From: Bacteroidota bacterium
GTDB lineage: Bacteria > Bacteroidota > Bacteroidia > JABEUT01
Reading direction: 5' to 3'
Assembly (NCBI GenBank): GCA_013288205.1
Contig: JABDCH010000005.1
Location: 1-49,649 of the forward strand
Length of the DNA: 49,649 bases
Shown here: positions 28,493-48,088 of the stretch, piece by piece
How the letters are laid out: each line of letters starts with the position of its first letter
How positions within the stretch are numbered: position 1 is the first letter of the stretch
Position numbers and translations under genes: made by a program
The notes under the pieces: generated by a model
The model's input: only the letters and a program-made list of their open reading frames with translations
What the model was told of the DNA's origin: nothing
Database searches by the model: none

Positions 28493-28602
28493 ATATCCAG
28501 CTAGATATGAAATACATGATACGTTGCGTCATTTATGACCAACCTTTTAATTATTTTTCCCGTATCAGTACATTATAAAAGTTGCCGGTAAAGCTAATGT
28601 GA

Positions 28603-29139
28603 ATGAACATAGAGATTGACTTAATAACTGCTTGCATCAGGAAGGAGAGGAAGGCGCAGTATGACCTTTACAAGCTGGTATTCCGTTATCTGATGAGCAT
28701 TTGCGTAAGGTACACTCATTCTTACGAAGAAGCAAATGAAGCATTAAACACCGGTTTCTTAAAAATACTCAATAACCTTGAAAAATATAAGGCTGATGTG
28801 CCTTTTAAGGCATGGATAAGAAAAATTATGGTAAATGTGCTGATAGATGAGTACCGGAAACAAAAAAAGGAAAGGGAGAATACTAAAATGATGCTGGAAT
28901 ACGTTGAACATACACCTATGGTGGAAATAAATAATGCCATTGCAAAAATGGATGCTGAACGAATACATAGGCTGATCATGGAGTTACCTATTGTAAGTCA
29001 GCGGGTGTTTAATTTATTTGTAATTGACGGATTTGACCATAAAGAAATAGCAGCCATGTTAGGAATAAGCGAAGGCACCTCCAAATGGCACTTACATAAC
29101 TCGAGGGAATTACTGAAAGAAAAACTAGTTAACGCATAG
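28603..29139 (+). CDS. ECF-type RNA polymerase sigma factor
   Basis: The 178-residue protein has sigma region 2 (LYKLVFRYLMSICVRYTHSYEEANEALNTGFLKILNNLEKY, then FKAWIRKIMVNVLIDEYRK) and region 4 (IMELPIVSQRVFNLFVIDGFDHKEIAAMLGISEGTSKWHLHNSRELLKEKL). It has no region 1 or 3, as in extracytoplasmic-function sigma factors. The next gene starts 8 bp downstream and has the layout of a membrane-spanning anti-sigma factor. The sigma is therefore probably held inactive at the inner membrane until a signal arrives. Target promoters are unknown. The ECF21-type group that pairs with such partners in Bacteroides is a possible classification, but I cannot assign it without alignment. Confidence 0.93.
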   Translation: MNIEIDLITACIRKERKAQYDLYKLVFRYLMSICVRYTHSYEEANEALNTGFLKILNNLEKYKADVPFKAWIRKIMVNVLIDEYRKQKKERENTKMMLEYVEHTPMVEINNAIAKMDAERIHRLIMELPIVSQRVFNLFVIDGFDHKEIAAMLGISEGTSKWHLHNSRELLKEKLVNA

Positions 29140-29147
29140 GATTAATC

Positions 29148-30653
29148 ATGAACGACGAGGAAAAATTTGATAAGATACTGCGCTTTAAACTGTCGGAAAG
29201 AGAGTACCCTTTTGACGAGTTAAATTGGGAGGAGGCCGAACGTTTAATCATACGCCAGGAAACAAAAAGAAAAGCTGTCCGCTTTTCGATAATTTTCTCC
29301 GCCGGTATTGTTGCCGGAGCACTTATCATGTTGCCATTTATCACAAACAATCGTAACGCATTATCTAACACTATTACAACCCATACAACTACTCTTCAAA
29401 ATTCTGTTGCCCAAAATAGCAGTTTGTCAAAAAGTTCATCAGCACAAACAAATTCATCTATTGGTAATACAACCGAAAAGGCTCCCCTGCCCGTGCAACC
29501 TGCTTTTGTCGAAAAGGATATCCGCACGGGCGTAGGGGGGAATTCCTCCCAACCATTGGCTACCGTTGCCAAAACATCTAAGCAACAAACTGCTTCATTG
29601 GTTGCTTATACGGATGCAAACAAGCAAAAACCAAGTTCCAGTACAGTAACCCAATATACAAGGGAAACACAAACAAATCAACCAACGGGATCCATTACGG
29701 CATCTGTTATAACGCCAAAAGAAGGCGAGGCTAACAGCAATAACAACTTAGCAGCCAATTTAGCCCCATCAGCAGATAATGCTGCTCCTGAAAATTCAGC
29801 GCCACCAAATACCTCCGAAAAACCGGGCGTTAATGCACCCATCAATACAGTTAAAAATTCCAACAATAACATTACCTCAAATACTTCCTCCGAATCGAAT
29901 AAAAATACTTCAGCCATAACTACCACTTCAATTAATAACCATATCGGCAAGAGCGACAGCATCAAGAATGAAGTGCTGCCCCCATTGCTCCCTGGAACAA
30001 CGCCTTATATCCACAGCGATTATTCAGCGAACGCATTTTCAATATACGCTGGAGGCGATTATTCACTTGGATGGAAAAATCAAGGTTCGTCTGAAAGCAA
30101 CAACGTTAAGCAAGCTATTGGAACGACACTGCTTGGAGGGATTTATTACACTCATTACTTTGGCAACATATCCGCCTCACTTGGCATAGGATATTCAGAA
30201 CTGACGGGGTTGAACAAAACCTATACCAGTAGCGTAACGCAATATGATTTCGGAGCTAATGAAATGGTAACAACCGTAACACCACAAACTGTTTATTATA
30301 TGGCATTCCCTTTAAAACTGCAATATGATATAGACAGTAAAGATATTGTAGGCATTAACTGCAATTACCTGATAATGCTTACCACATATAGCACCTTAGC
30401 GACATATCAGCAAACGTATTTTGGTCAAACTTCCATTTCCTCTCAAAAACAAAATGGCTTTACCCGGGGATTTTCGAATTCTGACTGGCAACTTGGATTA
30501 TCCTATACGAGGATGCTCACCGGCAGGCTTGGATTAAGCGCTGAATTTTATTACGACCTCGGCTATGTTGAAAATAACTCTATCTCCATCCTCACTCAAA
30601 ATACAAAGAACTCAGGCTTCAAGCTTGTTCTTTCTTATCAGTTAATACACTAA
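29148..30653 (+). CDS. Putative dual membrane-spanning anti-sigma factor (Dma-like)
   Basis: The 501-residue protein has four parts. A charged cytoplasmic N-terminus (1-45) contains EKFDKILRFKLSEREYPFDELNWEEAERLI, resembling a short anti-sigma region. One hydrophobic helix follows (about 47-65, FSIIFSAGIVAGALIMLPFI). Next comes a roughly 230-residue Ser/Thr/Asn/Gln/Pro-rich disordered stretch (66-296). A C-terminal outer-membrane beta-barrel-like domain (297-501) shows alternating hydrophobic/aromatic strands. There is no cleavable signal peptide. This matches the dual membrane-spanning anti-sigma (Dma) family described in Bacteroides thetaiotaomicron, where one chain spans inner and outer membranes and controls a neighbouring ECF sigma factor. 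Gene order (sigma then this, 8 bp gap) fits. The chain ends in LSYQLIH rather than the aromatic residue usual for barrels. The anti-sigma role is inferred. Confidence 0.75.
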   Translation: MNDEEKFDKILRFKLSEREYPFDELNWEEAERLIIRQETKRKAVRFSIIFSAGIVAGALIMLPFITNNRNALSNTITTHTTTLQNSVAQNSSLSKSSSAQTNSSIGNTTEKAPLPVQPAFVEKDIRTGVGGNSSQPLATVAKTSKQQTASLVAYTDANKQKPSSSTVTQYTRETQTNQPTGSITASVITPKEGEANSNNNLAANLAPSADNAAPENSAPPNTSEKPGVNAPINTVKNSNNNITSNTSSESNKNTSAITTTSINNHIGKSDSIKNEVLPPLLPGTTPYIHSDYSANAFSIYAGGDYSLGWKNQGSSESNNVKQAIGTTLLGGIYYTHYFGNISASLGIGYSELTGLNKTYTSSVTQYDFGANEMVTTVTPQTVYYMAFPLKLQYDIDSKDIVGINCNYLIMLTTYSTLATYQQTYFGQTSISSQKQNGFTRGFSNSDWQLGLSYTRMLTGRLGLSAEFYYDLGYVENNSISILTQNTKNSGFKLVLSYQLIH

Positions 30654-30660
30654 ACAGTTC

Positions 30661-31854
30661 ATGAAAAAAGTCACACATATTGTATTATTTCCCCTTATTG
30701 CACTAATTTTTGTTACCTGCAAAAAGCAGGAATTGGCTCCAAGTACAGTAGAAAATCAACCTATCTTCTCGTTCTATGGAAACATGGGAGGAAACATTTT
30801 GAATGTACAAGCCGGTGTAAATAATTATTACATGTTTTCTTCTGATTCATTGATAAAGGATTCCAGTCAAGGCGGATATGTAGTTAATTCTTTTACAGGA
30901 ACCCTTCGAAATACATCGACTGCCAATAACAGTATCCAGATTACTATAAATGACGATAGTCCTGTATCCTCAAATAACCCATCCGATATTTCTAATTCCA
31001 TTATCAACGGCAATAGCTATTATTACAATACACCTAATGGAACCCGAATATGGGATTCGGTATATTTTACACCTAAGTTATATTTGGGAAAATCTTCTTC
31101 ATTTTCCTATAAGTTTGGAGACGGAACTACTGCTACTGCAACAAGTGTAGCCCCAATTGGCCATTTATATAAAAAATTGCAAGACTATCATACACAGATG
31201 CACGTTACTTTTGATAGCGGAACACCGGATACTATGACCATATCTAATTTTCTTCAGCTTACCAGTCAAAGTACCGCTCCACTTGAAGTAAATTCTGTTC
31301 GCACTTTCTTAATAGCAGACTATAGCTATAAACATGAAGTTTCTTTCTGGGCTTATGTAAGCGGGGGTACTTCGCCTTACACATACCAATGGAGTTTTGA
31401 TACCATACAACAATTCACATCGGGTAGTGCGATAAATACAATACATACATTTAGTACCGAACCTGCTGATAGTTTTCTGGTTACATTAAAGGTAACGGAC
31501 CACACAAAAAAAGACACCGCCTATTTTCAATACTACTACACAGATACGCTTTCTAGCAATAACTCTGCAGCGTATTCCATGGCTGTACATCCTGTCGCAA
31601 ATCCTTACGGGCTTTCTACCGTTACTGTTAACTACACAGATGCCCAGGGACACCAGTATACTTCGAAGAATTCATCGCAATCAAGAAATAGCACTTTCCA
31701 AGTTACTTCTGTTTCCAATTATCAGAATAATAAGGATAATAACCCTACAAAAATGCTGAAGGTATCCTTCAATTGCATGTTATATAATGCGGCTCTGCAC
31801 GACTCCATTACTGCTACCAATTGTACGGCAGTAATTGCTGTGGCATATCATTAA
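30661..31854 (+). CDS. PKD-domain lipoprotein of the sigma/anti-sigma operon
   Basis: The 397-residue product begins with a lipoprotein-type signal (MKKVTHIVLFPLIALIFVTC, Cys20, with Thr at -1, atypical but tolerated in Bacteroidota). Two PKD-like beta-sandwich domains are visible: about 146-195 (YKFGDGTTAT then PIGHLYKK) and about 216-293 (YVSGGTSPYTYQWSFD then VTLKVTDHTKKD). The C-terminal 90 residues are unassigned. It lies 7 bp downstream of the Dma-like gene and ahead of the terminator, so it is probably the third gene of that operon. A role as a surface-exposed partner or ligand-binding subunit of the barrel domain is inference. It has no acidic surface-export motif after the Cys (KKQE). 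Confidence 0.75.
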   Translation: MKKVTHIVLFPLIALIFVTCKKQELAPSTVENQPIFSFYGNMGGNILNVQAGVNNYYMFSSDSLIKDSSQGGYVVNSFTGTLRNTSTANNSIQITINDDSPVSSNNPSDISNSIINGNSYYYNTPNGTRIWDSVYFTPKLYLGKSSSFSYKFGDGTTATATSVAPIGHLYKKLQDYHTQMHVTFDSGTPDTMTISNFLQLTSQSTAPLEVNSVRTFLIADYSYKHEVSFWAYVSGGTSPYTYQWSFDTIQQFTSGSAINTIHTFSTEPADSFLVTLKVTDHTKKDTAYFQYYYTDTLSSNNSAAYSMAVHPVANPYGLSTVTVNYTDAQGHQYTSKNSSQSRNSTFQVTSVSNYQNNKDNNPTKMLKVSFNCMLYNAALHDSITATNCTAVIAVAYH

Positions 31855-31876
31855 TATCTATTCTATTATTTGAATC

Positions 31877-31912
31877 AAAAAGTCTGGTGAAATTATCCGG
31901 ACTTTTTTATTT
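31877..31912 (+). terminator. Intrinsic terminator after the lipoprotein gene
   Basis: AAAAAGTCTGG (31877-31887) pairs with CCGGACTTTTT (31897-31907) through 11 pairs including one G-U, with a 9-nt loop and a T-rich tail. It ends the sigma/anti-sigma/lipoprotein unit. Confidence 0.8.
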
Positions 31913-31988: not shown

Positions 31989-33590
31989 ATGATAAAAAGA
32001 GCCATCCTCCTCCCCTGTCTTCTGTTTGTTTTATGTTCAACGTCATATATATCCTATGCACAAAACATAAATCTTTCTAATTCCCCTTATTGGGACGGGG
32101 AATGTTACCTCGCAGTAAATCCGCAAAATCCGAAACACCTGGTTTCTGCATGGATGTACTTTTCAACAACCAACCTGAAAAATGCCATAGCAACCCGTAG
32201 TTCCTTCGATGGTGGAAAAATATGGAGCAAATTGCAAATCCTGCCTCATGTATATTCCACTTTTACTTGTGCTGATCCGAGCATTTATTTTGGTAAAGAC
32301 AGTTGTGTTTATCTCGCTTATATCGATTTATCAGGTTTAAAAAGCAGCGATTCGGGATATGATATGGTAGCCCGTTCGGTGAATGGAGGGATAAACTGGA
32401 GAACACCGGTGAAGGCAATAGCATGGAATGCACAACCCAACTTACCCATTGACCGGCCCTGGATTGCTGCCGACCAAAGCAATGGCAAATATTCGGGACG
32501 TGTTTATCTTACCAGTCAGACTGCTTATTTTACACCGCAACCGCATCACCCCTGGTTTACATATTCATCAGATAGTGGAGCTACATGGGCTCCCGTCAAA
32601 CAGTTAGATGATAGCATACCATCAGGAGCCATAACAGACGCTACCGCCTTTATGACAGTTTCGTCAAGCGGAACATTATACTGCACTTATTTTTCATACT
32701 ACATTTCATATAGTGTCTATCCGCGGCTTGTTTTAGTGAAATCCTATAATGGCGGAAATAGTTTTATAACGCATGCGGCTATTAGTTTTACCGCAGCTGA
32801 TGAAGTGCCACAGGCTGATTCGCTTTTGAAAGATGGCAGGTGCCTTTCTTCCAACCCGGCGGATACAAATAATTTAATTACGATAGGTTGCTCGAATCAT
32901 TTTGGAGAACCAGATATTGTTTCCTATAATTCACACGACGGTGGAATGACATGGGGCGCACCGGTGCGTGTAAATGATGATTTGGTTGGAGCCTATGACA
33001 CCGCTCACGATTTAACCTGGGGCGGCTTTTCTGCTAATGGAAAATATGGAGTTGTATGGCGCGACAGGCGTCACACAGGTACCGGAGATACAGTGCCCTT
33101 TCAAATTTATGGCTCCACCTCTACCAATGGGGGAAAGAGTTTTACACCGAACTTTCTTATCAGTGATAGCATTTCACCCTTTATTGACCTGGAACGCGGC
33201 GATGATTTCCTGGGATGCGCGGTAACCGATTCGGCAGTATATGCCTTGTGGAGCGATATGCGCACCGGAAGAGAAAATACATTTTTCAATGCCACTCCAT
33301 CCGGCAAAATTCCGGCGGGAGTATTCTCGGTTTCGGACAATTCAACCATCAAGGTAGAAGCATACCCTAATCCGTTTCATAACGGAACGAACATTGTTGT
33401 GAATGCTACCGTACCACTGCAAAATTGCAAGCTCGAAATATTTGACATTACCGGGAAGAAAGAAGAAGAACTACAGATACCTGGTAATGGTTCGTATAAA
33501 CTCAACTTAAATTATCCTGCAGGTACCTATATCTGGTCGTTAATTGAAAATAACAACCCTGTAGCAAATGGAAAATGGGTTATTGAGTAG
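31989..33590 (+). CDS. Secreted Asp-box (sialidase-like) protein with T9SS sorting domain
   Basis: The 533-residue protein has an N-terminal signal peptide (cleavage near SYAQ). A beta-propeller-like body carries at least five Asp-box motifs of the S-x-D/N-x-G-x-x-W/F type: SSFDGGKIW, SVNGGINW, SSDSGATW, NSHDGGMTW and STNGGKSF. The last 75 residues form a type A T9SS sorting domain: AYPNPFHNGTNIVV, LEIFDITGKKEEEL, ending GKWVIE. The protein should cross the outer membrane through the type IX system and be released or attached to A-LPS. Asp-boxes occur in sialidases and many other BNR proteins, and I cannot confirm an active site, so glycosidase activity is not claimed. Confidence 0.85.
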   Translation: MIKRAILLPCLLFVLCSTSYISYAQNINLSNSPYWDGECYLAVNPQNPKHLVSAWMYFSTTNLKNAIATRSSFDGGKIWSKLQILPHVYSTFTCADPSIYFGKDSCVYLAYIDLSGLKSSDSGYDMVARSVNGGINWRTPVKAIAWNAQPNLPIDRPWIAADQSNGKYSGRVYLTSQTAYFTPQPHHPWFTYSSDSGATWAPVKQLDDSIPSGAITDATAFMTVSSSGTLYCTYFSYYISYSVYPRLVLVKSYNGGNSFITHAAISFTAADEVPQADSLLKDGRCLSSNPADTNNLITIGCSNHFGEPDIVSYNSHDGGMTWGAPVRVNDDLVGAYDTAHDLTWGGFSANGKYGVVWRDRRHTGTGDTVPFQIYGSTSTNGGKSFTPNFLISDSISPFIDLERGDDFLGCAVTDSAVYALWSDMRTGRENTFFNATPSGKIPAGVFSVSDNSTIKVEAYPNPFHNGTNIVVNATVPLQNCKLEIFDITGKKEEELQIPGNGSYKLNLNYPAGTYIWSLIENNNPVANGKWVIE

Positions 33591-41123: not shown

Positions 41124-44100
41124 ATGATTGCAGATGTATTTATAAGAAGACCGGTTACTGCCATAGTAGTTTCTCTTGTATTGGCTATACTGGGCGCTAT
41201 ATGCATTCTGAATCTTCCGGTAAATCAATATCCTGATATTACTCCTCCCGTGGTGCAGGTTACGGCACAATATACCGGGGCCGATGCCGAGACGGTGGAG
41301 CAGACCGTTGCCACTCCTATTGAGGAACAAATCAATGGCGCGCATGGTATGGAGTATATGCAAAGCAACAGCGCGAATAATGGGCTGATGACCATAAACA
41401 CCACATTTAAAGTTGGAACCAATATTGACATTGCCACACTGGATGTTCAAAACCGGGTAAGCATAGCTACTCCATTACTGCCTGCGGCTGTGAGCCGTTT
41501 AGGACTTCCTGTACGTGCCTTAAACCCCAGCGCATTAATGCTAGTGGCCTTATATTCTCCAAAAGGCACACACGCCATTACCTTTTTAGATAATTACACC
41601 AACATATTTATCATGGATGCTCTGTTGCGCGTGCCTGGTGTGGGTGCTATTACAACAGGGGCCGATAATTTCAGTATGCGCGTATGGCTGAACCCTGATA
41701 AAATGGCAGCATATTCATTAACGCCTACCGACGTAATTAGTGCATTGAATGAACAGAATTTACAGGTAGCTGCGGGTTCTGCGGGTGTGCCACCCCAGCA
41801 AAAAACACAAACCTATGAATTAAGTATTCTTGTAAATGGCCGCTTGAACAAGGTGGCGGACTTTGGAAACATCATTGTAAAAACCTTGCCTGATTCGGGT
41901 AAGATGGTTTACCTGAAAGATGTAGGCCAAGTGGAACTGGGTAAATTCACCTATTCGAATAATTCTTACGTAGATGATAAACGTGCTTCTATTCTTACTC
42001 TCTATCAAACCCCCGGAAGCAATGCCTTGCAAACGGCTGCTGCTATAATTAAAGAACTTGACCAGTTAAAGACATCGTTCCCAAGTGATGTCGATTACAC
42101 CATTCCTTATGAAACAGTAACCGTTGTTAAAGTATCTATGCGCGAGGTGGTGGAAACACTTCTTATTGCTCTTTGTTTGGTGGCCTTTGTGGTTTACCTG
42201 TTTCTTCAGAATTGGCGCGCCACGCTTATTCCCGTATTGGCTATACCTGTTTCCATCCTGGGTACGTTTGCCTTTTTCATTCCGCTCGACTTCACCATTA
42301 ATACGTTAACCATGTTTGGTTTTGTATTAGCCATCGGCATTGTGGTGGACGATGCTATTATTGTGGTGGAGGCCGTGCAACACTATATGGATACAGAAAA
42401 ACTTCCGGTGAAAGAAGCTACTACCCGCGCCATGCAAGACATATCTGCACCCGTAATTGCCATTGCCCTCATCCTGGCTTCGGTATTTGTTCCCGTAGGG
42501 TTTATTCCCGGTATCGTAGGTCGCCTCTATCAACAATTTGCAATCACCATAGCAGTGTCTATTGTGCTTTCCGCTTTCATTGCCCTTTCGTTAACGCCAG
42601 CGCTGTGTACACTCTTGTTAAAACCGCATGATGCCCGCGAGCGTGAACACGGCTTAGGCAAACTCTTTTTCCGTTTCAATACATGGTTCGATTCTGTTAC
42701 CAACCGCTACTCCCATGGTGTAAAAAGGGGTATTGAAAAATCAAAATATGTTATCATACTATTATTGTGTATCGGTATCGCCACATTCTTTTTATTTCAA
42801 CATAAGCCATCAGGATTTATTCCGAGTGAAGATGATGGACTGGTATATGTTACCTATGAATTGCCCGAAGCATCTTCTACCATTGAATCGGTAAATGTAA
42901 TGCAGCAGTTAATGAAGGTGGTTTCATCTACGCCAGGTGTGGAACACTATGCCGCATTGGCAGGGTTTAACGTAATAACCGGGGCCACTAAATCAAACAG
43001 CGGCACCATTTATGTGCAGCTTAAACCCTGGGAAGAGCGTACGGAAGCAGGCCAGCGTATACCCGGGTTGATAAATGTAGTCCGTCAAAAAATTGCAGAG
43101 GCCAACATCAAAAATGCCGATATAGTTGTTATCCCCCCAGCGCCAATACCAGGTATTGGGCAAACGGCGGGATTCAGCTTCCAGATTGAACAACAAAATA
43201 CAAATGACGATGTACACCAATTTGAAGCGGTAGTTAAGAATTTTGTTGCCGAAGCCAATAAAAACCCTGCTATAACAGATGCATTCAGTTATTATTCGGC
43301 GCACACACCAAGTTACAATCTTACGGTGGATAGAGAACGCTGCGAAAAGATGGGTGTTAATGTTTCCGATGTGTTTACAGCCATCCAGGTGTATATGGGC
43401 AGTTATTATGTGAACGACTTTACCTTATATAACCGTACTTTCCACGTAGTTGTGCAGGCCGATACCACCTACCGGAAAATGATAACAAATATGGATAAGT
43501 ATTATGTGCGAAACCAGTCGGGGCAAATGTTACCGTTGAGCTCGTTTATCAGTTATAAACCTTCTGAAACAGCGCCGCTTTTATCGCACTTTGATATTTT
43601 CCGTTCGGCTGAAGTAGATGGTTCTTCACCGGAAGGATATAGCAGCGGCCAGTCTATAGATGCGCTAAAACAAATCGCAACCAAAGTATTACCGCAAGGA
43701 TATGGATATGATTTCTCCGGGTTGAGCTATGAAGAAATACAGGCAGGTACATTGACGATATATATATTCATGTTCTCCCTTTTATTTGTGTTTCTCTTCC
43801 TGGCTGCCTTATACGAGAGCTGGTCAGTTCCTTTCTCTGTATTGCTGGCAGTGCCTATCGGTGCTTTTGGCGCCATACTTACCTTAATTTGTATTCCAAG
43901 CCTCACCGATAATGTATATGCACAAATCGGGTTGATAACGCTGATAGGGCTTGCCGCGAAGAATGCCATATTAATTGTAGAGTATGCCAAAGTACGTGTA
44001 GATACAGGTGAAGACCTGATACAATCAACACTGGATGCAGTGAAATTGAGGTTACGCCCCATAATAATGACATCCCTGGCCTTTATATTGGGTGTAATGC

Positions 44101-44330
44101 CGTTGGTGTTTGCATCCGGTGCAGGCGCTGTTGCCCGCCGTACCATTGGGGTTACCGTATTGGGCGGGATGGTGGCTGCTTCATCCATTGCTATATTTAT
44201 TGTGCCGGTATTATTTGTGGTAATTGTAAAAATAGCATACGGTAAAACCCAATTAGAATATTTGGCAGCACATAGGGATGAATTGGTAGCGAAAGCAAAA
44301 GAAGAGAGTGAAGGGAAGAATAACAAATGA
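41124..44330 (+). CDS. RND efflux permease (HAE1/AcrB type), first copy
   Basis: This 1068-residue inner-membrane pump uses the proton gradient to expel hydrophobic compounds. It opens MIADVFIRRPVTAIVVS, the usual HAE1 N-terminus. The TM4 proton-relay aspartates are in FGFVLAIGIVVDDAIIVVEA and the TM10 lysine in IGLAAKNAILIVEYAK. Twelve helices with two large periplasmic loops are evident. GFIPSEDDGLVYVTYELPEASS and FDGT-like porter segments are intact. It starts 22 bp after the adaptor. Roughly two thirds of residues match the second copy downstream (by-eye comparison of the N-terminal third). Substrate is unknown. Confidence 0.95.
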   Translation: MIADVFIRRPVTAIVVSLVLAILGAICILNLPVNQYPDITPPVVQVTAQYTGADAETVEQTVATPIEEQINGAHGMEYMQSNSANNGLMTINTTFKVGTNIDIATLDVQNRVSIATPLLPAAVSRLGLPVRALNPSALMLVALYSPKGTHAITFLDNYTNIFIMDALLRVPGVGAITTGADNFSMRVWLNPDKMAAYSLTPTDVISALNEQNLQVAAGSAGVPPQQKTQTYELSILVNGRLNKVADFGNIIVKTLPDSGKMVYLKDVGQVELGKFTYSNNSYVDDKRASILTLYQTPGSNALQTAAAIIKELDQLKTSFPSDVDYTIPYETVTVVKVSMREVVETLLIALCLVAFVVYLFLQNWRATLIPVLAIPVSILGTFAFFIPLDFTINTLTMFGFVLAIGIVVDDAIIVVEAVQHYMDTEKLPVKEATTRAMQDISAPVIAIALILASVFVPVGFIPGIVGRLYQQFAITIAVSIVLSAFIALSLTPALCTLLLKPHDAREREHGLGKLFFRFNTWFDSVTNRYSHGVKRGIEKSKYVIILLLCIGIATFFLFQHKPSGFIPSEDDGLVYVTYELPEASSTIESVNVMQQLMKVVSSTPGVEHYAALAGFNVITGATKSNSGTIYVQLKPWEERTEAGQRIPGLINVVRQKIAEANIKNADIVVIPPAPIPGIGQTAGFSFQIEQQNTNDDVHQFEAVVKNFVAEANKNPAITDAFSYYSAHTPSYNLTVDRERCEKMGVNVSDVFTAIQVYMGSYYVNDFTLYNRTFHVVVQADTTYRKMITNMDKYYVRNQSGQMLPLSSFISYKPSETAPLLSHFDIFRSAEVDGSSPEGYSSGQSIDALKQIATKVLPQGYGYDFSGLSYEEIQAGTLTIYIFMFSLLFVFLFLAALYESWSVPFSVLLAVPIGAFGAILTLICIPSLTDNVYAQIGLITLIGLAAKNAILIVEYAKVRVDTGEDLIQSTLDAVKLRLRPIIMTSLAFILGVMPLVFASGAGAVARRTIGVTVLGGMVAASSIAIFIVPVLFVVIVKIAYGKTQLEYLAAHRDELVAKAKEESEGKNNK

Positions 44331-44869: not shown

Positions 44870-47800
44870 ATGATTGCTGATGTATTTATAAGAAGGCCCG
44901 TTACCGCAATCGTTATAGCTATTGTAATAGTTCTATTGGGAGGTGTTTGCATTTTAACCCTTCCCATTAACCAATATCCTAACATTACTCCGCCGGGTGT
45001 TTCCGTTAGTACCTCCTACACCGGTGCCGATGCCCAAACCCTGGAGCAAAATGTCACCATTCCTTTAGAAGAAGCAATTAATGGTGTAAAGGGTATGGAA
45101 TACATTACCAGCAACAGTACCAATTCAGGTTCATTATCCATCAACACCACGTTTAAAGTAGGTACTAACGTAGATATTGCCGCGTTGGATGTTCAGAACC
45201 GGGTAGGTATTGCGGCGCCTATGCTGCCTTCGGTAGTAAGCCAATTAGGGGTAACGGTGCGTGCAAAAAACACCAGTATGCTAATGCTCATAGCGCTGTA
45301 CTCTCCTAAAAAAACACACGACATTACCTTTCTCGATAATTATAATAATATTTACCTGATGGATGCGCTGCTGCGTGTTCCAGGGGTAGGTGACGTTACT
45401 ACCCGTGCCGATAATTTCAGCATGCGGATATGGATGGATCCGCAAAAGATGGCTTCTTATTCCCTGACTCCTTCTGATGTGGCCACGGCATTAAACGGCC
45501 AAAATGTTGAGGTGGCGGCCGGTTCAGTAGGTGCTCCTCCCCAACAATCATCGCAAACAAATGAATTAACTGTACTTGTAAACGGCAGGTTGAATAAGGT
45601 TTCTGATTTTGAAAACATTGTTGTAAAAACAATGCCTGCCACCGGCCAGATGGTTTATATGAAAGATATTGCCAGGGTTGAGCTGGGTAAATTCACTTTT
45701 TCAAGCAATTCGTATGTAGATGGCAATCGGGCATCTTTCCTGCAAATTTTCCAGCTCCCTACAGCGAATGCCCTGGATGTGGCAAACGGCGTATATGCAG
45801 AGCTTGCAAAACTAAAAAAAACATTCCCCGAAGATGTAGATTATAAAGTACCGTTTGAATCGGTTACTATTGTAAAAGTTTCCGTGCAGGAAGTGGTTAA
45901 AACACTCATCATTGCTCTTATCCTCGTCGTATTTGTAGTGTTTTTATTTCTGCAAAACTGGCGCAATGCACTTATCCCTGTATTGGCTATTCCGGTTTCT
46001 ATTATCGGTACGTTCATCTTTTTTGTTCCCTTAGGATTTACGATTAATACACTCACCCTATTTGGTTTTGTACTGGCAATCGGAATAGTAGTGGATGATG
46101 CCATTATAGTGGTGGAGGCGGCGCAGCATTATATTGATGTAGAAAAAATGTCGGCCATAGATGCTACCAAACATGCTATGAAAGACATAAGCGCACCGGT
46201 AATTGCAGTTGCATTAATACTCGCTGCCGTATTTGTTCCTGTGGCTTTTATTCCGGGTATTGTAGGCCGCTTGTATCAGCAGTTTGCCATCACTATAGCT
46301 GTGTCGATACTTATTTCTGCTTTCGTAGCTCTTTCCTTAACACCTGCCCTGTGCACCCTGCTTTTAAAACCACACCATATCGACGATAAATCCAATGGAA
46401 TAAACCGGTTCTTCTATCTCTTTAATAACCGTTTTGCCCGGTTTACACATAGGTATGCAAACGGGGTAAAAAGAGGTATTAAAAATTCGAAATATGTAGT
46501 TGTTCTGCTGATATGTATTGGTGTTGTTACCTATATTCTATTTTATATTAAACCCAGGGGGTTTATTCCGAATGAAGATTCCGGGCGCGTATTCATTACA
46601 TATGAATTACCTGAGGCTTCATCCACCATCCAGTCTGTTCAATTTATCAATAAGCTGATGAGAGTAATAGGTGGAACCCCGGGTGTAGCAGACTATTCAG
46701 CCCTATCAGGATTAAATATAAGTAATGGTGCGGCTAAATCAAACAGCGGCACTATATTTTGCCAGCTAAAGCCCTGGGATGAACGTACCAAGCCCAGTGA
46801 GCAGATGCCTGGTATCATAATGGAAATGTATAAACGTATACAACAGGATACTTTGAAGAATGGGAAGGTGGTGGTTATGCAACCTGCTCCTATACCGGGA
46901 ATAGGAATATCGGCCGGTTTTACATTTATGATTGAGCAACGAAGTACCACTGACGATTTGCAGCAGTTTGAAGCTGTGGTGAAAAAATTTGTAGCAGAAG
47001 CCAATAAGAATCCTGCTATCGGCCATGCAGTAAGTTACTATTCGGCACATACACCCAGCTATGAGCTCACCGTAGACAGGGAGAAGTGCAAAAAAATGGG
47101 AGTCAATATTGCTGATGTATTTCAAACCATTGAAGCATACATGGGCAGTTTATTTGTAAACAATTTTACGTTGTACAACCGTACCTACCATGTGGTTATA
47201 CAGGCTGATACCGTATATCGCCGCTTTGTATCGGATATAGATAAATATTATGTACGCAACCAGGCAGGGCAAATGCTACCGCTTAATTCCCTGGTTTCAT
47301 ATAAGCCTATTGCAGCCGCTCCGGTGATACCTCACTTTAATATTTTCCGCTCGGCCGAGGTAGATGGCGGTTCAGGACCGGGATATAGCAGCGGACAAAC
47401 GATGGATGCCCTGGAGGAAGTCGCTGCCAAAGTATTGCCCCGCGGATATGGATATGAATGGTCAGGATTAAGTTATGAGGAATTGGTAGCCGGCTCACAA
47501 ACCATTTACATTTTTATGTTCTCACTGATTTTTGTTTTTCTCTTCCTGGCAGCATTATACGAAAGCTGGTCGGTGCCATTTTCTGTGATGTTGGCAGTGC
47601 CTATTGCCGCTTTTGGGGCCATCCTTACACTTATATGTATTCCCCCACTCAGCAATAATGTGTATGCACAAATAGGACTAATAACGCTTATAGGCCTTGC
47701 CGCCAAAAATGCTATATTGATTGTAGAATATGCCAAAGTGCGGGTAGATGCGGGCGAAGACCTGATACAATCTACCATTGATGCAGTAAGCCTTAGATTA

Positions 47801-48088
47801 AGGCCCATACTTATGACATCGTTTGCTTTTATTTTTGGAGTACTTCCATTGGCATTTGCCAGTGGGGCAGGCGCTGTTTCCCGTAAAACTATCGGGTTCA
47901 CCGTATTGGGTGGAATGATTGCGGCTTCTTCCATTGCTATCTTTATTGTTCCGGTGCTGTTTGTTGTAATTGTTAAAATTGCCTATGGCAAAAAGAAACT
48001 GGCCTACCTGACAGAACATCGCGATGAACTGATGGCCAAAGCCGACCTGCCCAAGTCGGAATTAACGAACGATGATAAAGCCGAATAG
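44870..48088 (+). CDS. RND efflux permease (HAE1/AcrB type), second copy
   Basis: The 1072-residue protein is a close paralogue of the upstream permease, with the same N-terminus (MIADVFIRRPVTAIVI), TM4 DD motif (GIVVDDAIIVVEAAQHY), TM10 lysine (GLAAKNAILIVEYAKV), and nearly identical membrane helices. Divergence is greatest in the porter domain loops; for example GFNVITGATKSNSGT here reads GLNISNGAAKSNSGT. It has no adaptor or TolC of its own in this window. It may use the upstream adaptor and channel, as a second homotrimer or as part of a mixed trimer. It is convergent with tsaD, with an 11-bp gap. Confidence 0.95.
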   Translation: MIADVFIRRPVTAIVIAIVIVLLGGVCILTLPINQYPNITPPGVSVSTSYTGADAQTLEQNVTIPLEEAINGVKGMEYITSNSTNSGSLSINTTFKVGTNVDIAALDVQNRVGIAAPMLPSVVSQLGVTVRAKNTSMLMLIALYSPKKTHDITFLDNYNNIYLMDALLRVPGVGDVTTRADNFSMRIWMDPQKMASYSLTPSDVATALNGQNVEVAAGSVGAPPQQSSQTNELTVLVNGRLNKVSDFENIVVKTMPATGQMVYMKDIARVELGKFTFSSNSYVDGNRASFLQIFQLPTANALDVANGVYAELAKLKKTFPEDVDYKVPFESVTIVKVSVQEVVKTLIIALILVVFVVFLFLQNWRNALIPVLAIPVSIIGTFIFFVPLGFTINTLTLFGFVLAIGIVVDDAIIVVEAAQHYIDVEKMSAIDATKHAMKDISAPVIAVALILAAVFVPVAFIPGIVGRLYQQFAITIAVSILISAFVALSLTPALCTLLLKPHHIDDKSNGINRFFYLFNNRFARFTHRYANGVKRGIKNSKYVVVLLICIGVVTYILFYIKPRGFIPNEDSGRVFITYELPEASSTIQSVQFINKLMRVIGGTPGVADYSALSGLNISNGAAKSNSGTIFCQLKPWDERTKPSEQMPGIIMEMYKRIQQDTLKNGKVVVMQPAPIPGIGISAGFTFMIEQRSTTDDLQQFEAVVKKFVAEANKNPAIGHAVSYYSAHTPSYELTVDREKCKKMGVNIADVFQTIEAYMGSLFVNNFTLYNRTYHVVIQADTVYRRFVSDIDKYYVRNQAGQMLPLNSLVSYKPIAAAPVIPHFNIFRSAEVDGGSGPGYSSGQTMDALEEVAAKVLPRGYGYEWSGLSYEELVAGSQTIYIFMFSLIFVFLFLAALYESWSVPFSVMLAVPIAAFGAILTLICIPPLSNNVYAQIGLITLIGLAAKNAILIVEYAKVRVDAGEDLIQSTIDAVSLRLRPILMTSFAFIFGVLPLAFASGAGAVSRKTIGFTVLGGMIAASSIAIFIVPVLFVVIVKIAYGKKKLAYLTEHRDELMAKADLPKSELTNDDKAE

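Follow-up and report, generated by a model that had tools for sequence, protein, structure and literature searches.

A lipoprotein-bearing variant of the dual membrane-spanning anti-sigma system in Bacteroidia, with type IX secretion cargo among its predicted targets

Dual membrane-spanning anti-sigma (Dma) proteins have been described as a family restricted to Bacteroidota, in which an N-terminal domain, a transmembrane helix, a tether and a barrel are joined in one protein encoded beside an ECF21 extracytoplasmic function (ECF) sigma factor, and loss of Dma1 or Dma2 causes hypervesiculation (PMC13088901). We analyzed a 49,649-nucleotide stretch of a Bacteroidota genome (contig JABDCH010000005.1, hereafter the window), in which an ECF sigma gene is followed by genes for a 501-residue Dma-like protein and for a lipoprotein. 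Judged from its sequence, this locus represents a new and widespread form of the Dma system, distinguished by an additional lipoprotein and by a regulon of type IX secretion system (T9SS) cargo; neither this lipoprotein nor the T9SS regulon is described in the literature searched.

The Dma2/Das2 system of Bacteroides thetaiotaomicron (BT_1557-BT_1559; PMC13088901) likewise consists of a sigma gene, an anti-sigma gene with N-domain, transmembrane helix, tether and barrel, and a third gene. Its sigma factor, N-domain and barrel are homologous to those of the window, and the autoinduction of its operon in a mutant (PMC13088901) is counted here as a likeness to the autoregulation predicted for the window operon. 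The two systems differ in that the third gene of Dma2/Das2 encodes an unrelated DUF4943 protein (lipoprotein-like in the loci L249 and L250, which come from two Bacteroides-like genomes and were identified from the layout of their operons and not from a name), in that the two DUF4943-bearing genomes examined yielded no CCAACC/CGTA sites, and in that the published work on Dma2/Das2 reports vesiculation and polysaccharide loci as outputs rather than T9SS cargo (PMC13088901).

Three further systems share parts of this arrangement. PorXY-SigP of Porphyromonas gingivalis also comprises an autoregulated ECF sigma factor linked to type IX secretion and a surface signal (PMC4800418, PMC7712824); SigP, however, is activated by a two-component system and controls secretion machinery genes, whereas the targets predicted for the window-type system are exported cargo and its regulator is a transenvelope anti-sigma factor. 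The SM6 promoters of Flavobacterium psychrophilum (PMC9723704) are of ECF type with a CGT -10 box and include those of a sigma/anti-sigma pair and of T9SS genes, but the targets named there are T9SS machinery (GldN, PorU) and no sigma factor was assigned to them. In TonB-dependent transducer and FecR-type signalling (PMC9249621), an outer-membrane event is likewise conveyed through an anti-sigma factor to an ECF sigma factor; barrel and anti-sigma factor are separate proteins there, whereas one chain is predicted to span both membranes here.

Dma-type protein and the conserved lipoprotein

The sigma, Dma-like and lipoprotein genes follow one another with gaps of 8 and 7 bp, end at a hairpin terminator (Table 1) and form one operon. 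The AlphaFold model of the 501-residue protein, built on 66 homologues, has helices at residues 3-16 and 24-66, the latter running into the membrane segment, disorder over 73-290 and a barrel at 295-500. In the alignment of 66 sequences, Trp27 of the anti-sigma domain is nearly invariant, a hydropathy of 1.6 is attained at the membrane segment in 63 of 66 homologues, and the linker measures 129-279 residues (median 193.5). When the barrel was compared with the PDB by Foldseek, the best matches were OmpA, Ail, NspA and OmpX (E 5e-8 to 3e-5). The protein itself has no Pfam match, and OMP_b-brl_2 was matched by 3 of 15 homologues (best E 7.5e-6). On the basis of the transmembrane helix and the barrel fold, the chain is predicted to lie in both membranes.

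A first-pass annotation of this DNA had reported the same three open reading frames, and their gaps and coordinates, the ECF sigma gene (Pfam regions 2 and 4) and the strong terminator were all reproduced. Its outline of a cytoplasmic N-terminus, one helix, a disordered linker of about 230 residues and a barrel-like end agrees with the model, in which the linker has about 220 residues; it had named a soluble fold of the last 200 residues as a possible refutation, and the confident eight-stranded OmpA/Ail-like barrel contradicts this. Its assignment to a Dma-type system is backed by architecture and by the homology of both ends to the Bacteroides Dma2-type protein; the added statement that the system occurs beyond the gut Bacteroides is correct, though by itself no novelty, the family having already been described as Bacteroidota-wide (PMC13088901).

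The evidence for this homology comes from several comparisons. The four-part layout is found in one chain of the window protein, and an ECF sigma gene is its neighbour. The sigma profile matched the das2 homologue at 6.5e-33, and in a small search space the N-terminal profile matched the Dma2-type proteins of L249 and L250 (E 1e-7 and 5e-5), as did the barrel profile (E 1e-3 and 1e-2). By hhalign, the window-family and Bacteroides Dma2-type barrels aligned with a probability of 98 (E 2e-13). The layout at L249 and L250 is sigma, Dma, DUF4943, a protein at the DUF4858 position and a BT_1555-like protein. By these profile comparisons, the 501-residue protein is a Dma-family member, homologous at both ends to Dma2, and the system as a whole is a Dma-type variant with the defining features that sequence can test. 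Viral origin or spread was considered and rejected, with no relative found among viral contigs.

Conservation was surveyed in the 11 genomes of the genus, the sole genus of its order in the genome set used, and, because the order contains only this genus among those genomes, in 295 genomes of the class Bacteroidia, 84 of which matched the Dma profile. The gene triplet occurs in 11 of the 14 Dma loci of the genus, the other three being sigma-Dma pairs of a second type, and since this gene order recurs there and in most class loci sampled, a chance arrangement is excluded. Among the best 80 relatives of the sigma factor in GTDB, a set that does not cover all ECF factors and on whose loci the profiles were themselves iterated, the next open reading frame encoded the Dma protein in all 72 loci where one was visible (68 with both ends), the lipoprotein gene stood third in 59 of 69 loci with a visible third gene, and the median gaps were -4 and +3 bp. 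In the set anchored on the Dma gene (n=60), the sigma gene adjoined in 56 loci and the lipoprotein gene in 42.

The linkage also holds when viewed from the lipoprotein. With the profile of its C-domain, 54 of 56 matches at E <= 1e-9 in the 295 genomes adjoined a sigma-Dma pair, a count made from coordinates, with five doubtful loci checked individually. The two exceptions are a fragment of 54 residues located where a contig ends and a lipoprotein of genome G060 (C3, L377) that is unlinked from the sigma-Dma pair of that genome (C1, L141). Weaker matches comprised further triplets and stand-alone lipoproteins of about 200-290 residues with no sigma gene nearby; raw matches of the full lipoprotein profile outside the operon were PKD-only and were left out of the counts. 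The earlier suggestion that the lipoprotein is a new component agrees with these counts: its linkage gives good support to a conserved third component, new relative to the described Dma2 operon. Tandem duplicate lipoprotein genes were seen 3' of the Dma gene at L023:5281-7689 (with PKD domains) and L386:3455-4722 (without).

The lipobox cysteine, Cys20, is invariant in 58 of 58 lipoprotein homologues, and the AlphaFold model is confident, with a predicted local distance difference test (pLDDT) score of 87.6 and a predicted template modelling score of 0.78. The two PKD-like domains of the first-pass annotation were recovered by Pfam PKD at residues 225-285 (23.6 bits, barely above the cut-off of 23.5), by PKD_4, which is matched by 13 of 13 homologues in the genus, and by PDB profile matches. 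Because three orthologues without PKD domains (L189, L199 and L202; 210-214 residues) retain the N- and C-domains, these two form the core of the lipoprotein and the PKD pair is optional. No Pfam family was matched by the three PKD-less proteins, and for the N- and C-domains we found no Pfam family and no solved structure, only generic Ig-like matches; one homologue matched DUF5025 at E 0.026. An identity with DUF4943 (PF16301) was rejected: neither the window lipoprotein nor its homologues matched it in Pfam, the family had no match in the window's own genome, and the lipoprotein profile did not match the DUF4943 proteins of the Bacteroides-like loci.

The signal C-X-K-(D/E)2 directs lipoproteins to the surface, as established in Capnocytophaga (PMC5080379). 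It is missing from the window lipoprotein, whose N-terminus is CKKQELAPS, although the rules in this lineage may differ, and an adjacent acidic pair near the cysteine was present in 11 of 58 homologues. Since the signal is missing here and in most homologues, a lipoprotein facing the periplasm in the outer membrane seems at least as likely as a surface-exposed one, and the surface sensor or ligand-binding partner suggested in the first-pass annotation is no more than a candidate role. Stand-alone lipoproteins of about 210-220 residues without a nearby sigma or Dma gene (L382, L384, L385, L387, L388, L389 and L390) have the C-domain in common, some of them the N-domain as well, and some carry acidic, export-signal-like N-termini (e.g. 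CKKDDDSDDD).

Promoter motif and predicted regulon

Upstream of the sigma gene lies CCAACC-N16-CGTA, a newly found motif that we predict to be the promoter of the operon's own sigma factor; ECF promoters typically have a CGT -10 box (cited in PMC9723704). Within the genus, CCAAC and CGT are invariant and at fixed spacing in 12 of 12 loci. In the class, 50 of 75 sigma genes are preceded by CAAC-N17-CGT and 2 of 75 by the reversed pattern, and the spacer was 17 in 53 of 55 sites. A scan of the operon for sigma-70 promoters gave 17 matches, no excess over the 12.1 +/- 3.2 expected by chance.

Sigma-Dma pairs of the second type carry a variant, CCAACATTT/CGTT, before the sigma gene. The window's own genome has such a second pair, without a lipoprotein gene (G000:C46:12251-13648, L138), with counterparts in relatives (L032, L033 and L034), and in second-type pairs a further CCAACGTTT site lies about 2.2 kb downstream, past the Dma gene. 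Double motifs in tandem precede the sigma and cargo genes at L105 (G108:C65) and L319 (G108:C51); at another double site on G108:C51, no open reading frame of at least 80 residues starts within 350 bp.

Searched across genomes, the motif leads beyond the operon. With a strict pattern, the 11 genomes of the genus contain 30 sites, compared with 4 when the pattern is reversed, and a second pattern gave 51 sites against 6 in 31 Dma-bearing genomes. In 15 genomes without a match to this Dma profile, among them both Bacteroides-like genomes from which L249 and L250 come, the second pattern gave 0 sites against 1 reversed. The first genes downstream of the sites encode mostly large secreted proteins, and the C-termini of the 44 non-sigma targets scanned include 18 T9SS signatures of type A and 13 of type B. 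In the genus, 20 of 22 intact targets are of T9SS type (19 by signature, L299 by eye). Per genome, the background amounts to at least 150 type A matches (360-485 candidates) and 40-44 of type B; taken as at most 16%, a generous estimate for which gene number was inferred, it gives an enrichment of p about 2e-14.

An adjoining T9SS cargo gene has its own motif 29-145 bp upstream at L023, L025, L026, L027, L030 and L031, and twice at L029. At L029 and L031, which are paralogous loci, the promoters of sigma and cargo share a variant of their own (CCAACATT..TTCGTTTT; CGTRTTGTAAT), and such subtype matches tie the sigma factor to its neighbouring cargo at the level of predicted promoters. The interpretation given in the first-pass annotation was sound as to the Dma type and the conserved lipoprotein, but it had overlooked both the autoregulatory promoter and the T9SS-cargo regulon.

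Proposed mechanism and its alternatives

We consider it probable that the operon encodes an autoregulated Dma-type transenvelope switch with T9SS cargo among its outputs in relatives. This proposal joins what was computed here (gene order, domain architecture, homology to Dma2, the promoter motif and its link to Dma genomes and T9SS cargo) with sigma binding, membrane insertion, barrel-lipoprotein contact, the signal and the direction of control, which we infer. At rest, by analogy with the family, the cytoplasmic N-terminus of the 501-residue protein would hold the ECF sigma factor, while one helix would anchor the protein in the inner membrane, the disordered tether would span the periplasm and the OmpA-like barrel would sit in the outer membrane. 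An outer-membrane event perceived by the barrel together with the lipoprotein would release the sigma factor, and the freed factor would transcribe its own operon from CCAACC-N16-CGTA and, in relatives with such sites, genes whose products are large secreted proteins that bear C-terminal T9SS signals. More tentatively, we regard it as plausible that this is a class-wide system of Bacteroidia in which lipoprotein and barrel jointly monitor the condition of the cell surface or of type IX secretion, the tether-released sigma factor induces T9SS-exported surface proteins, and the lipoprotein is an undescribed core component.

Several results weigh against these proposals. Outside the genus, 9 of 19 intact motif targets are of T9SS type by signature, the others looking like chance sites; the gene at 31989 in the window, which encodes an adjoining T9SS protein, has no motif upstream; and in the window's own genome (62% complete) the operon's own promoter was the sole site found. 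As to the lipoprotein, a third gene can be output only, because that of the Dma2 operon, the unrelated BT_1557, is induced by 6 log2 units in a dma2 mutant and yet is dispensable for vesiculation (PMC13088901). The lipoprotein could thus be an envelope protein that the sigma factor merely regulates and that stays in the operon for the sake of its expression, with the barrel sensing alone; the 10 of 69 sigma-anchored loci that have the sigma-Dma pair and no adjoining lipoprotein gene, the tandem lipoprotein copies, and the isolated C-domain lipoproteins far from any sigma gene all fit such a role. Its almost exclusive linkage to the sigma-Dma pair argues otherwise, as does its absence beside every Dma protein whose C-terminus the barrel profile does not recognise (0 of 10, compared with 42 of 50 otherwise; p 6e-7, the profile having been trained partly on these loci). 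Its divergence also tracks the barrel more than the anti-sigma domain: in a mirror-tree comparison, distances of the lipoprotein N-domain correlated with those of the barrel at r 0.80 (0.59 given sigma) and with those of the anti-sigma domain at r 0.61 (0.21 given sigma), a weak support, confounded by shared ancestry and fragment length. Barrel linkage and correlated divergence favour the lipoprotein as a partner and the BT_1557 precedent favours it as an output, a role that we find quite conceivable, if on balance doubtful.

An OmpA-type eight-stranded barrel with an obligate outer-membrane-type lipoprotein, which in the window has no known surface-export signal, also resembles the RcsF-OmpA device, in which case the lipoprotein would sit in or against the barrel and failed barrel assembly or lipoprotein transport would be the signal. 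Such an assembly stress sensor seems unlikely, however, since the predicted targets are secreted surface proteins and not chaperones or assembly factors, and the likeness to RcsF is one of analogy. The motif might, moreover, be common to several ECF sigma factors of overlapping specificity, another of which controls the T9SS genes; the second sigma-Dma pair in the own and related genomes would allow for this, and several ECF factors may act at the CGT-box promoters of Flavobacterium psychrophilum (PMC9723704). Yet sites are absent from genomes that this Dma profile does not match, the second pairs have a variant of their own, and sigma and adjoining cargo share variants at L029 and L031, which makes a shared motif improbable as the explanation.

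If the class-wide reading is correct, the system would connect the outer membrane directly with the expression of surface proteins. The published Dma work consulted concerns Bacteroides thetaiotaomicron, and the lipoprotein-bearing form is far more widespread; its predicted promoter is precise enough for regulon prediction, and one-chain transenvelope anti-sigma factors would now be linked to type IX secretion cargo. The stimulus of the barrel, the lipoprotein as a co-sensor and the choice of giant surface proteins exported by Bacteroidia thereby become testable.

Feature coordinates and neighbouring genes

Table 1. Features of the operon, with positions in the window and the evidence for each.
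Feature	Position	Strand	Evidence
Predicted autoregulatory ECF promoter	28539..28569	+	-35 CCAACC (28539-28544), 16-nt spacer, -10 CGTATCAGT (28561-28569)
ECF sigma factor, 178 aa	28603..29139	+	Pfam Sigma70_r2 2e-12, Sigma70_r4_2 8e-13; NCBIfam sigma70-ECF 2e-23
Dma-type protein, 501 aa	29148..30653	+	AlphaFold model; profiles and hhalign against Bacteroides Dma2-type protein
Predicted cytoplasmic helical N-terminal anti-sigma domain (aa 1-45)	29148..29282	+	Conserved FD..L...K......FDE..W..A; sigma binding predicted
Predicted inner-membrane helix (about aa 48-66)	29289..29345	+	Hydropathy 2.28 over 19 residues from residue 48
Disordered linker (aa 67-291)	29346..30020	+	pLDDT mostly <55 over 73-290
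Predicted C-terminal outer-membrane eight-stranded beta-barrel (aa 292-501)	30021..30650	+	pLDDT mostly >90; Foldseek
Lipoprotein, 397 aa: signal peptide with lipobox Cys20, N-domain, two PKD domains, C-domain	30661..31854	+	AlphaFold; PKD matches
Lipoprotein N-domain (about aa 33-142)	30757..31086	+	Conserved core; no family match
Two PKD-like domains (about aa 143-300)	31087..31560	+	Pfam PKD_4 144-191, PKD 225-285; absent from some orthologues
Lipoprotein C-domain (aa 302-397)	31564..31851	+	Conserved core, no family match; profile searched in 295 genomes
Rho-independent-type terminator, hairpin and T-run	31877..31907	+	dG -13.4 kcal/mol, z -4.25 against shuffles

Just beyond the terminator, positions 31989-33590 encode a secreted protein that has BNR repeats and ends in a type A T9SS tail, relatives of which (66-71% identical) lie near the triplet in genomes G010 and G004. 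Further along the window, genes for an outer-membrane channel-like protein (38469) and an adaptor-like protein (39905) precede two consecutive paralogues at 41124-44330 and 44870-48088, which resemble RND-type efflux pumps and have near-identical starts.

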